Positions 19,165 to 26,235 of a DNA stretch of 58,376 nt are shown piece after piece. How positions within the stretch are numbered: the first letter of the stretch is position 1; each line of letters opens with the position of its first letter. The notes beneath the pieces were generated by a model. The model made no database searches. It saw only the letters and a program-made list of their open reading frames with translations, and was not told the DNA's origin. Location: positions 1 through 58,376 of the forward strand of contig NZ_PCPT01000014.1 in the NCBI RefSeq assembly GCF_002975435.1, read 5' to 3'. The position numbers were made by a program, and so were the translations under genes. The stretch comes from Arthrobacter sp. MYb227 (GTDB lineage Bacteria; Actinomycetota; Actinomycetes; Actinomycetales; Micrococcaceae).

Positions 19165-20793
19165 ATGATCGGCATCGAAGAACTGCGCACAGTCAAAACT
19201 TTCGCCCCGCTACCCGACGAGGTTTTGGGCTATTTGGCCACAGCCGTGGAAGACATTCATCTGCTGCCCGGCGAATACTTTTTGCACGAGGGCGATGAAC
19301 GCTCGCTGATCGTGGTCATCGAGGGAAACGTGGAAATCACCAAGGTCGTGGCCGGAATCGAAAAGGTCATCGGCACCCGCAAACCGGGACAATTCTTCGG
19401 AGAAGTCCCGCTGACACTGAGCACCAAATTCCCCGCAGCGGGCCGTGCCGCTGGTGTGGCTCGGATCATCAAGCTCGATGTCGCCGGCTACTACACACTT
19501 GCCACTATGGCGCCCTCGGTGCCCGAACGGGTTGGTTGGCTGGCCCGGCATTATCTTGACTCGCTCCAAGAACTCGCCGCCCAGGCCCCGGATGCCGTGG
19601 CCCGGGTCATTGGCCCGCGACGTGATGCCAAGGTCCGTGAACTTGCAACATTTCTGACCCGAAACCATGTGCCATTCGAGCGAATTACGGTCGAAAAACC
19701 CGAGGGTGGTGCCCTCTACCCGCGGCTTGAGGTACGCGATGGGCCCAGCTTTGCCGACCCACAATTACGCACTGCCGCCCAAGCCGTGGGACTCGAGGTT
19801 ACACCCGCTTCCAGCGATTACGACGTGGTGATAGTCGGCGGGGGACCGGCCGGCCTTACGGCAGCGGTCAACGGCGCTGCCGAGGGACTGCGCACGGTTG
19901 TCATTGAACAATTGGCTCCCGGCGGGCAGGCCGGAACCTCAAGTCGCATCGAAAACTACACGGGATTTCCCTACGGAATTACCGGGGATGAACTCGCCGG
20001 CCGGGCCCTGACCCAGGCCAAACGACTTGGCGCGGAAATCGTTGTCACCCGTACCGCCTGCGGCATAGACCCTGATTCCTTAGAAGTGATGCTCGATGGC
20101 GGCCAACTTCTGAAAGCCCGGGCCGTTATTATGGCCACCGGGGTTGCCTGGCGAACTCTTGGGTTGGAGAGCACCGAACGCTTCCTGGGCAGTGGAATCT
20201 ATTACGGTGCGGCCTTCAGCGATGCACCGCTGGCCCAGGGTCAAGACATCTGCATTATCGGGGCGGGAAATTCCGCGGGCCAGGCGGCAATCTTCTTTTC
20301 CCATCATGCGCGCTCGGTCACCATGTTGGTGCGTGGTACCTCGCTCGCCGCACGCATGTCCACCTATCTGATCGACCAGATCGAGGCCAACGCTGCGATC
20401 ACTGTGAAACTGAATACTCAGCTTGTCGCACTACACGGCGAGAGCAGCTTGTCAGGGATAGAAATGCTCGATACCGCCAACGGGAGCAGCAGCCGGCTTT
20501 CCACACCCGCGGTCTTTGTCATGATTGGTGCCGATGCGGTCACCGATTGGCTGCCGGACAGCATCGAGTGTGACAAGCATGGATTTATCCTCACCGGAAA
20601 TGACCTAGCGAACAACGGCCAATCACTTGATGTCGGGGCCACGACGCAACGCCGCCACTTTGCACTAGAGACAAGTGCCTCAGGCGTTTTTGCCATTGGC
20701 GATGTGCGCTCCGGATCGGTCAAACGTGTTGCCGCGGGCGTGGGGGAGGGCGGCATGGCCATCGCCTATACCCACCAATTCCTCGCTCTATGA
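19165..20793 (+). CDS. Cyclic-nucleotide-binding domain fused to a thioredoxin-reductase-like FAD oxidoreductase
   Basis: A 542-residue fusion. Residues about 8-130 form a cNMP-binding fold (LPGEYFLHEGDERSLIVVIEGNVEI, GQFFGEVPLTL). A linker of about 80 residues follows, then the two-dinucleotide-domain module: VVIVGGGPAGLTAA near 220, PGGQAGTSSRIENYTGFP, GAGNSAGQAAIFF near 366 and AIGDVRSGSVKRVAAGVGEG near 512. The redox CxxC of thioredoxin reductases (normally YCATC) is replaced by IYYGAAFSD, so it cannot reduce thioredoxin in the usual way. The closest functional parallel is a ferredoxin- or flavodoxin-type NADPH oxidoreductase regulated by a nucleotide. ATG 19165 follows AGGGAG at a longer than usual spacing. 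Confidence 0.87.
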   Translation: MIGIEELRTVKTFAPLPDEVLGYLATAVEDIHLLPGEYFLHEGDERSLIVVIEGNVEITKVVAGIEKVIGTRKPGQFFGEVPLTLSTKFPAAGRAAGVARIIKLDVAGYYTLATMAPSVPERVGWLARHYLDSLQELAAQAPDAVARVIGPRRDAKVRELATFLTRNHVPFERITVEKPEGGALYPRLEVRDGPSFADPQLRTAAQAVGLEVTPASSDYDVVIVGGGPAGLTAAVNGAAEGLRTVVIEQLAPGGQAGTSSRIENYTGFPYGITGDELAGRALTQAKRLGAEIVVTRTACGIDPDSLEVMLDGGQLLKARAVIMATGVAWRTLGLESTERFLGSGIYYGAAFSDAPLAQGQDICIIGAGNSAGQAAIFFSHHARSVTMLVRGTSLAARMSTYLIDQIEANAAITVKLNTQLVALHGESSLSGIEMLDTANGSSSRLSTPAVFVMIGADAVTDWLPDSIECDKHGFILTGNDLANNGQSLDVGATTQRRHFALETSASGVFAIGDVRSGSVKRVAAGVGEGGMAIAYTHQFLAL

Positions 20794-21581
20794 AAATTCT
20801 GGTGCGGCGCAGAAGCGCCCCCCAGTGGATGCTGATGCAGGCAGAAGCTTGCTGGAATCGGGAAACAACACGATTTTTTCGCCCATTTGATGGCGCGATT
20901 GGGTTTCCATCATTCGATGAGCATGAGCACATTGCGATAGCGGCAAGATTTTCCCTGCTCGGGTAGCGATACCCGGGCCGGCAAACATACCGTTCAGGTA
21001 ACTGGCAGCCTCGGCCGCATCTTCGACCGAGACTTTACTGATGGCAAAACCAAGAAGAGAAATATCGCGTCGGTATAGGTACCCGGTATCAATTTCTTGG
21101 AACCCGCGGATCCCGGCGCTATGGATGATCCGCCCGCCGATCGTGAGAAGTTGTGCCTGCCGGTTGATGGGCATGGTGCCCGAGGCGTCCCACACCCGAT
21201 TGGCCCGGCACCCACCTGGTGGTAATCGAGCACCCGTCGGGTACCTAACCCGGTAAGCCACTAAACATCGGAAGCCCCCAGCTACCGCGAAAAACTGACA
21301 CCCCCATACCTAGGGCCAGTTGCACAGCAATCGATCTCCGAGAGCAAAACCACTGACCTGCGCACCGCGGCGCCCCACGATCCCACCACGTCGTGGCCCA
21401 CGGTAAACGGAAAACCTATCCCGGTGGCGTAGGCACCGGAGCACACAAGCACATCCACATGGTTCACGGCAACCGCCTCCATGCGCACCAAAACCTCCTA
21501 CGGTCCCGGCAGTGGAACCCGGCGATCCGAGTACTCGATCGCATCGGGCCCGCCGAATGAACGGATGAGCGCGGCCTTCAT
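20788..21581 (-). pseudogene. Decayed zinc-type quinone oxidoreductase (NADPH:quinone reductase family)
   Basis: Read leftward from ATG 21581: MKAALIRSFGGPDAIEYSDR and RVPLPGP, then an in-frame TAG (21498-21500). The same frame resumes as EVLVRMEAVAVNHVDVLVCSG and FPFTVGHDVVG. A shift of frame then gives AQVSGFALGDRLLCNW. About 100 central residues, including most of the Rossmann fold, are missing or unreadable. The C-terminal part is intact: VWDASGTMPINRQAQLLTI, GGRIIHSAGI, LLGFAISKVSVEDAAEAASY and GEKIVLFP near 20860. The original stop appears lost, and the frame runs into the end of the neighbouring oxidoreductase gene. Confidence 0.85.
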
Positions 21582-21744
21582 TGGCTTCGGTATCGACTCG
21601 GGGTTCGGCTTGTCTGTATCGATCATGATGCCAATGATGGATACCCGCAATCCAACGGCAACGCTTGCACCATGAAAAAGCCTGCACGCCAACCACGCAA
21701 GGGGGTCGACGGGCAGGCACTTCTAGATGCTCAATTACCGATGG

Positions 21745-24700
21745 TTAGGAACAGATCTTCACCGGATGGTTGGGCTTGCATTTCTCATTGGGGTTGGTAA
21801 TCAGCAGCGGCAAGGTTACCGCGGTACCACTGGGGGCCACCTTGATGGAGATGGACCCGCTGGTGCGCGCATCGGCTGGCAGGCTAAAGGAGACGTTCGC
21901 CGATCCGTCCTTCACACCTACCGTGTCAACCACGCGCTTCTTACCCTTTGAATCGGTGAATTCAACCTTTACCGTGGTGTTCTTTGGGCTGCCCAGCGAA
22001 GAAAGATCCAGCTTTTTGAGCTGGAAGGAAACCTTGGACTTGGCATCGACCCGCGCCGGATTGCCGATGACCTCCACGCCGCGGCGTGCAAAATCCGGTA
22101 CCAGCGGCGCGCTTGCCGACTGCTCGCCCAGGTACTTGATCCAGGCGTCGCGGTCGATCAGACCCGAGTCCTTGGTGTTGGTGCCCTGGGTGAAGACGCG
22201 GAAGTTATCCCCGCCGGTGGCAAGGAAACTAAACGTGCCAACGCGGTAGGAACGATCAGGATCCACCGGCTCACCGTTAATGGTGATCGAGGTGATGCGA
22301 TCGCTCTGCGTGCGGGTCGAATCGTAGGTGTAATCCATGTTTGAGGACAACCCCAGGTTCAGGAACGGACGGCTCGGGATCGAACCATCGGCGTTGGTCT
22401 GCCACTGCTGCTCAAGCATGGTTTTCACCTGTGCCCCACTCAACGAGGTGGTCCATAGGTTGTTCACGAACGGCAAGACGGCATTTGCGTTTGCGTAGCT
22501 GATCACACCGTCCGCGACACCCTGGTTCTTGACCAACAGATCCGCACGCAACCCACCGGGGTTGACCACGCCGATTTCCGCGCCGCCGGTCTGGTCAGAC
22601 TTCAACGCATCAAGCAGCGCATCGCCCACTAGATTACCGAGGGTGGATTCGGATGAACGATCATCGCGGGTGTACTTGCCGGTGGCCGGATCGTAGGTCT
22701 GCGCGGTGGTGATATCGGCAGCGAGCCTACCGACCGGGACACTACCGGCGACCTTGGCATCGGCCAACGCCTTGTCGGTGATGGTCTTTACCTCGGCCAC
22801 ACGTGGGAACGATTCAACCAGAGTGGCATCATCGGTCTTGGTGCGCGGCACGTTGCCCTGGGTGTAGGAAACAACCTTGTTGGTTTCATCGAGCTGCAAG
22901 GTGATTTGCCCAATGAACTCGCCGTAGCTGCCGGTTTGCAGCACGGGACGGGTCTTGAGCACGGCATCGGCCGAAACGCCCGGAATCGGTGCATCCCATG
23001 CGTACTGCTTGTGGGTGTGCCCGGTGAAGATCGCATTGACCAGCGGGCTGGTCTTCGTCACGATCTTTTCAAAGGCACCCCCGGCGGCGACCTCCTCATC
23101 GATGGTGGCCCCGTCCGGAGTTCCGGCACCGGCGCCGTCATGGTATTCGGCAATGATGACTTCGGCGAGGTTTTGATCGGAGATCTGCTTGGCCACACGG
23201 TTCACCGCGTCAACCGGATCCCCAAAATCGAGCATGCTGATGCCCGACGGGGTGACCAGCGACGGGGTCTCCTGGGTGATGGCACCGATAATTCCCACCT
23301 TCACTCCGGCAACCTCGATGATCTTGTATTCATCGAGCACCGGGGTGGTGGTGCCCTTGGCGTAGACATTGGCGCCCAGATAATCCCAGTTGGCCGCCTG
23401 ATTCACCCGGCCGTCAAGATCCGCGTATCCCTGATCGAATTCGTGGTTGCCCACGGCCGAGGCTTCCAAATCCAGTGCGTTGAGCACGTCGATGGTGGGA
23501 ATATCCTTCTGCGAGGCGGAGGCGAACAAGCTGGCACCGATATTGTCTCCGGCCGAGAGGAACGCGGTGTTCTTCTCTCCCTCGGCGGCACGCAGCTGCT
23601 CAATGGTGCCGGCGAACTTCACGGTGTTTTGATCAATGCGACCGTGGAAGTCATTGATGTTCAACAGGTTGATTTTCTTGGCCGATGGCTCGGTGGCACC
23701 GAGCTGAAGCCCCACGATGACCGGGTCGTGGTCCGAGGCTGCAAAGGCAGTGGTGTCGTAGAAATCAATGGCATTGTATTTGTACCGGCTGTAGCCCATG
23801 GCCACGGATTCGGGGGAGTCGATGTTCCAGATATCCGCGCCGGTCACGGCCGCTTCGGCCGCTGGGGAGGCCAGCACATGGTCCAGCGAGCCGACCATGC
23901 CACCGAAACTGTAGGTGTGCTTGCCGGTCTTCGGATCCTGATCCACGTACCCCGCATCGGTCATGACCTTGATCGGGTCTTCATGCAGGTAGGCGTTGAA
24001 GTCGCCCATCAGCAGCACCTTGTCGGTGTTCTGCGCAGCCTGCTGCGCCGTGGCGAATGCCACGAGTGCCTTGGCCTGGGCCGTACGTGCCAGGTTGGAG
24101 TTGCCCTGGCCCTGATCGGTATCGTTGCCGATGGCCGAGCCCTTGGACTTGAAGTGGTTGACGATCAACAGCACCTTGGCCGAATCGTCGGCACCCACCG
24201 GTTTGAACGCTTGGGCCAGCGGCTGGCGGGCAATGCCGGTAAAGGCCGCATCATCCAGGATGACCGAGTCACCCACCGGCGCCGCGTTGGCCACCTTGTA
24301 AATGAAGGCGGTGCGGATGACATCCTCATCGGCTAGTGCCGGACGGTCCACCGGGGAGCGGACATAATCCCAGACACCCGGTGCGAGAGCGTTCAATTCC
24401 TTGACCAGGGCTGCTACTGCCTTATCCCGGTCCGGGCCAAACTTTGCCGAGTTCTCCATCTCTTCGAGGGATAGAACGTCGGCGTCCGTGCCAATGATGC
24501 CGGCCGCGATCTTGTCGCTCTGGCGCTTGAGGTTTGCCGCATCAGCGGCACCGCGCTGCGGGCAGCCGCTCTTGACGGAGATCTTATTGCCGTTGTAATC
24601 GGTGTAGAACTGGCACGCCGGGTCCATGTCCCCGGTCTGAATGAAGTAGTTCTGCACGTTGAAGGAAGCAACGGTGAGGTTTCCGCCGACATCCTGCGGT

Positions 24701-26235
24701 GCTGCCTGACGGTTATTGCCAAAGGTAATGGGCTGCACAGTTCCGGCGTTATCCGGGATCAGCGCTTCTAGTGGCTGGAACTTATACGAATTATTGCGGT
24801 TATCGAAGATGACAGGTGCCATGAATTCCGAGGTGGATCCCCCGCGCGTTGGCGTCCGGGCGCTAAGCCACGGTAACGGAACCGTTGAACCATTGGCCGA
24901 GAGGAAATTGGTGCTTGATCCGTCATCGAGCTTGATGGCACGAGCCGCATTTTCCGCCACGACGGCGTGGTACTCCTCCGAGCCATACGTTGCCACTGCG
25001 GTGGGCTGGATGAGTGCCTTGGCGCCGGTGGCCAGGCCGAGTTCGCCGTAATTATTCAGCGAGTAATTATCGGTGATGGTGAATTCACCTTGTGGGTCCA
25101 CCAGCATGCCCTCGAGGGATTCACGCTTTTCAATGGTGGCAGGAACCGTGATGACGGCCGCCTTGACCTCGGCGCTCGCCTCGGAGAGCTGGGTCAAACC
25201 AGCTGCAGGCACATCAATTTCGGTGGTTGTTGCGCTGTCGTTGGCGCCGCCGAACTCCTTGACCAGACCTGTGACCTGGACATAATCTCCGACCTTGACG
25301 TCCTTGACGGTGGCCGGTGAGTAGGCAAAGACGGCGTCGGAGGCTTTGTGCGTAGACAAATTGATGTCGCCGCCGGTACCCGGTGTTTGGATGAAGTATC
25401 CGTTGAACCCGCCGGTGGGGTAGGCGGCAGTCACCTTACCCGTGGTGGTAACTAGGGTTCCAGTCAGTGGGCTAACGGCTCCTTCGCCCTGAATTTCGGC
25501 AATGGTTTTGCTGCCCGAATTTTCCGGTGGCCCCTCCGGTTCATCGCCGCCGGCGACGCCGGTGGGTGAGGGAGCCGCGGTGCTGAAGTCATGGGCATTG
25601 TTATCGGTATCGATAAAATCGGTGCGGTTTAGTGAGGAGCTCGCGTTGGCGGCCGATGATGCGGCGACCTCATAGGTATTCGAGGAACCATAACCGAGCA
25701 GGTCTATGATCCCTGCCGTGCCAACTAGGGAACCGGTGGGCAGATCTGCCGGAAGCCGGGTGCTTGTGTCCGAGAGGAACAGGGTTCCACCGCCGCCTGC
25801 GAATGCGAAGCCGCTGGCATCACCATCGGATGCCGGAAGATCCTTACCCACCGTGCCGTTGGAGTTTCCCTTGATCAGGAAGTAGTCCTTGGCCTTGATA
25901 ATTCAGGAAAGCGGAGCGAGCCCGGTGGGGGCTACCTGCCCGCTTGCGGAACGGTACTGTAGCGACCAGCCGGAAAGATTGATGTCCGTATTGGTCCGGT
26001 TGTAGAGCTCCACATACTTGTTCTTGTAGGTGGCGTTGGCGCTGCCGCCGTTGAGGTAGGCCTCGTTGATGATCACCTGCGGCGCCGAAGTGGCGTCAAG
26101 AGCTGCTGCTGCGAGTGGGGTTTCGCCGGGGCTTGGCTCGCTGGTGGCCGATGCCGGTGGGATTGCCGCCGGGGCCACGGCAAGCCCGAGAGCCAAAATG
26201 GCTCCCAGCCCGACCTTCATGAAGGAGTTACTCAT
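21745..26235 (-). pseudogene. Secreted ExeM/NucH-type nuclease fused to a 5'-nucleotidase, interrupted by one in-frame TGA
   Basis: A chain of 1,496 codons from ATG 26235. It has a signal peptide (about 1-30, MKVGLGAILALGLAVAPAAI...ASA), a lamin-tail domain from about residue 50 (INEAYLNGGSANATYKNKYV, ELYNRTNTDINLSGWSLQYR), an OB-fold segment near 240-350 and an endonuclease/exonuclease/phosphatase domain near 520-840 (VASFNVQNYF, MGDFNAYLHEDP, SDHDPV). A 5'-nucleotidase follows near 855-1310 (NINDFHGRI, GNHEFDQG, GHTHKQYAW), then a C-terminal beta-type tail. The reading is open except at 25903-25905, where TGA stands after APLS and before IIKAKDYFLIKG; a Gly codon GGA is the likely ancestor. 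The second part alone (from GTG 25851) would lack the signal peptide. In a living form it would degrade extracellular DNA and release phosphate and nucleosides. Confidence 0.88.

Follow-up and report, generated by a model that had tools for sequence, protein, structure and literature searches.

Organization of the interrupted gene

The window, that is, the whole 58,376-nucleotide stretch of DNA analyzed here (contig NZ_PCPT01000014.1 of Arthrobacter sp. MYb227, assembly GCF_002975435.1), carries on its reverse strand a frame from 26235 to 21748 whose translation comprises 1,496 positions and a single internal stop at residue 111 (Table 1). The downstream piece encodes the rest of the lamin-tail domain, an ExeM/NucH endonuclease, a calcineurin-like phosphoesterase and a 5'-nucleotidase C-terminal domain. 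The ExeM/NucH model NF033681 scores 534.6 bits against a curated cut-off of 300, with model positions 1-546 of 546 covered, and the matches to PF00149 (30.9 bits, cut-off 21.5) and PF02872 (120.7 bits, cut-off 23.6) both exceed their gathering scores. The signal peptide of the upstream piece is putative, being a hydrophobic, signal-like N terminus judged by eye from the translation. For the lamin-tail domain, PF00932 gives 47.5 bits against the N-terminal piece alone, and a six-frame search gives the match listed in Table 1, which passes through the TGA.

Table 1. Features of the interrupted nuclease gene (window coordinates)
Feature	Position	Strand	Evidence
In-frame TGA, codon 111 of 1,496	25905-25903	-	Translation, homologue comparison, lamin-tail match across the stop
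Upstream piece (110 aa) with a signal peptide-like N terminus and the opening part of the lamin-tail domain	25906..26235	-	LTD PF00932 2.7e-12; GGAG before ATG
Lamin-tail domain across the stop	25768..26091	-	PF00932, 57.3 bits, 1 TGA inside
Downstream piece, 1,385 codons and terminal stop	21745..25902	-	NF033681 3.1e-160; PF03372, PF00149, PF02872
First in-frame GTG past the stop, without Shine-Dalgarno match; poor re-initiation candidate	25849..25851	-	

The original prediction, made from the letters of the window and its open reading frames, described an in-frame TGA interrupting a 1,496-codon secreted nuclease/5'-nucleotidase, a frame open on either side with one lamin-tail domain running across the stop, no second lesion in about 4.5 kb, and a signal peptide severed from both catalytic parts. 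The translation and the domain matches agree with this description: the PF00932 match traverses the TGA, the TGA is the only internal stop of the frame, and it falls between the predicted signal peptide and the catalytic domains. Export signal and nuclease, which belong together in an ExeM/NucH protein, are thus not parts of one translated product, since the stop parts the N terminus from the nuclease. By descent the gene is a member of the ExeM/NucH family, and its present product is probably nonfunctional.

The stop position in homologous loci

For comparison, the best 80 of 437 loci encoding a relative were kept. In a set of 108 loci, the match to the downstream piece begins within its first 10 residues in 84, including the window itself (L001), and the 24 set aside consist of 23 paralogues and one locus (L095) in which the match begins further in. 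Alignment to relatives, proposed with the original prediction, showed no stop at the position in any of the 83 homologous loci that were examined; all are open through it, which rules out two frames that are neighbors by chance. The residue at the stop position is glycine in 81 of the 83 and lysine in two, which have a glycine one column earlier; two members of this count, L029 and L030, appear to be duplicates of L006 and L004. In a multiple alignment of 82 sequences, with L029, L030 and L001 dropped, the position is glycine in 81 of 81 homologues. Apparent TAG stops inside the matches of four congeners (L008, L011, L012 and L021) proved to be located at natural ends or outside the gene. Two actinobacterial orthologues stand on contigs with unexpected names, one labelled Vibrio cholerae (L064, WNZI01000007.1; 55% identity) and one labelled Sporosarcina (L041, NZ_JADHDY010000003.1; 76%), which suggests that these records are mislabelled or contaminated. 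Another locus, from a Herbiconiux metagenome-assembled genome (L105, 5001-11144), has an open frame of 2,323 codons in which the 5'-nucleotidase part is matched a second time, in tandem.

Among the best 80 of the 437 loci, the nearest named homologues are those of Paeniglutamicibacter antarcticus and P. terrestris, with 81% and 79% identity downstream of the stop, and on such sequence grounds the window genome is placed in or adjoining Paeniglutamicibacter, as that of an environmental actinobacterium. Against all four congeneric orthologues, the stop codon and the codon that follows it differ at two positions each, so that the stop lies inside a six-base stretch with four differences. In this copy, private changes reach a density of at least four per six bases in four clusters, one of which holds the stop. 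A one-base change from GGA, as first supposed, is therefore not certain as the origin of the stop: a single step is possible, yet the nearest relatives, from all four of which both the stop codon and its neighbor differ twice, do not point to it. A search of the window for a sequence that could have served as template for this six-base cluster gave only three 9-base matches, which were taken as chance without a shuffle control.

Distribution and neighborhood of the gene

Counting the window's own, 13 of the 15 genomes from the genus have a match to the downstream piece. The full-length fused gene occurs in five (the window's own, G001, G004, G010 and G014), a shorter ExeM-like gene in eight, and two have no match. 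The full-length orthologues, from P. antarcticus (L030), P. terrestris (L029) and Arthrobacter species, encode the same fused protein and differ from the window copy in that their frames are open through the stop position. In the four congeners that have it, the full-length gene is 1.4-4.8 kb away from cysE and the adjoining cysK, as in the window, and because of this shared position the gene is ancestral at this place. Three genomes with the short form (G003, G008 and G009) and one with no match (G011, on a contig of 10,621 bases) have both cysE and cysK but lack the fused gene in the stretch read. The fused gene looks dispensable in the genus because it is patchy there and missing beside cysE/cysK in some congeners.

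The shorter ExeM-like genes (L008-L015, from G003, G005-G009, G012 and G013) are 46-48% identical over the nuclease part and have no match to the lamin-tail N-terminal piece; in L008, L011 and L012 a signal-like sequence at the N terminus runs directly into the nuclease part. Directly downstream of the nuclease gene in the window, at 20791-21743 on the reverse strand, lies what is left of a gene for a zinc-type alcohol dehydrogenase/quinone oxidoreductase. It matches ADH_N (3.2e-07) in a frame with its stops read as X, and further dehydrogenase-like sequence can be seen by eye in another frame, where there is no Pfam match. The remnant is probably an older pseudogene beside a recent one.

Selection and age of the lesion

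Selection was estimated on tip branches from the 1,384 codons after the stop in the window copy and four congeneric orthologues (L004-L007). The window tip has a dN of 0.093 and a dS of 0.65, giving a dN/dS of 0.144 (95% 0.116-0.176) that is rough because dS is high, and pooling the tips of the four congeners yields 0.125 (0.106-0.147). The two values differ by an interval of -0.013 to 0.055, so selection on the window branch does not differ clearly from that on its congeners, although it may be slightly relaxed. The dN of the window branch is about 2 to 11 times that of the congeners, and, as the frame holds no second stop, neutral divergence after the loss can have reached no more than about 2.5%. 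At columns conserved in at least 95% of sequences, the window copy departs at 8 of 428 (the stop and seven mild replacements), where each of the four congeners departs at 2 to 3, an excess that speaks against recency but that its longer branch can explain; across all 82 sequences such departures range from 0 to 20. Long-standing decay, tested by the tip dN/dS and by these departures from conserved columns, is rejected. A single stop, absent from the homologues examined, in a gene under selection that is not clearly relaxed bears out the earlier view that the locus reflects either a recent loss or a sequencing error.

Interpretation of the stop codon

The locus is best explained, with a probability of roughly 0.75, as a nonsense mutation, recent on this lineage, in the gene for a secreted nuclease of ExeM/NucH type that carries a fused 5'-nucleotidase. 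Translation would begin normally and stop after 110 residues inside the lamin-tail domain, detaching the signal peptide from the enzyme domains so that export would be lost and, barring traces from leaky reading of UGA, no exported enzyme would be made. We infer that the base is real and that the function of the gene is lost. The lesion is ordinary gene decay and not recoding. Recent pseudogenes formed by nonsense mutation are an ordinary kind in bacteria, and this locus shares with them a single inactivating stop in an otherwise open frame, a stop that all 83 of the examined homologous loci lack. The lesion is read from one assembled genome, in a set with one genome per species, and may reflect an error, a mutation in culture or a fixed mutation. 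It is not described in the titles and opening lines of abstracts among the literature matches listed on ExeM/lamin-tail extracellular nucleases, Paeniglutamicibacter pseudogenes and Arthrobacter nuclease nonsense mutations.

A sequencing or assembly error, with the gene intact in the organism, is unlikely but is the rival to be taken most seriously, as it would account for a lone lesion in about 4.5 kb and for selection that is not clearly relaxed, and the base is known from a single genome of the species. Against it stand the good general quality of the genome (100% complete, 0.24% contamination, 27 contigs), which is silent on single bases, and the four differences from congeners in the six-base stretch around the stop, a weak point since three of them could be older changes. 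The decayed dehydrogenase gene next door further suggests that decay here is real.

Much less probable is that the stop is read through, by programmed recoding, an opal suppressor tRNA or selenocysteine insertion, and the full-length protein made. The frame open on both sides and the purifying selection still visible downstream would fit such a reading, yet a recent lesion accounts for continued selection equally well, and the lack of the stop in all 83 homologous loci disfavors the programmed readthrough that the original prediction had named as its refuting alternative. In this genome no match to tRNA-Sec reaches the gathering score, and eight of the nine weaker matches are ordinary tRNAs according to ARAGORN. 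A loose pattern for tRNAs with a TCA anticodon, which would miss atypical tRNAs, hits 63 places in the genome as against 46 in a reversed control, and ARAGORN reads none of these 63 (30 loci and 33 stretches) as such a tRNA. Programmed readthrough, selenocysteine and opal suppression are thus unsupported by homologues and tRNA searches alike, and global recoding is likewise contradicted, as first argued, by other genes that end normally in TGA (6 of the 29 window ORFs picked). Equally improbable is a tolerated stop, in which low-level reading of UGA would export enough nuclease-nucleotidase for activity to be lowered rather than lost and for the gene to remain under selection. Very unlikely, too, is a division into two working genes, one for a short secreted piece of the lamin-tail domain and one for a cytoplasmic nuclease-nucleotidase with an internal start. 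Although the downstream frame alone would yield 1,368 amino acids from a GTG, a Shine-Dalgarno match precedes none of the three in-frame starts within 219 codons of the stop, unlike the ATG at 26235 (GGAG). The split also sits within one domain, and no examined homologue is split at that point.

Consequences for enzyme activities

Should the stop be real, the original prediction expected both an extracellular DNase and a phosphate-release activity to be lost. Loss of the latter is unsupported because two 5'-nucleotidase paralogues with open frames (46% and 48% identity over that part) remain elsewhere in the genome. Loss of extracellular DNase is plausible from gene content, as the genome yields no second ExeM/NucH gene and no match to Endonuclease_NS, although five further genes of the broad PF03372 superfamily qualify the claim. 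ExeM of Shewanella oneidensis (PMC6085458) is arranged as here, with a signal sequence, then an N-terminal lamin-tail domain and then a C-terminal EEP nuclease domain; its degradation of extracellular DNA is reported to need the nuclease domains, the lamin-tail domain being largely dispensable. The window gene differs from it in the 5'-nucleotidase part fused after the nuclease and in the stop that cuts the lamin-tail domain. Because the lamin-tail domain is largely dispensable in Shewanella, the expected defect would be lost export through separation from the signal peptide, and not the cut in the lamin-tail domain itself. For annotation, the locus should be labelled a likely pseudogene, and neither two genes nor a recoded protein. 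If real, the lesion would add one more case of a large secreted enzyme lost recently, here by an environmental actinobacterium from a genus in which the gene is already patchy.
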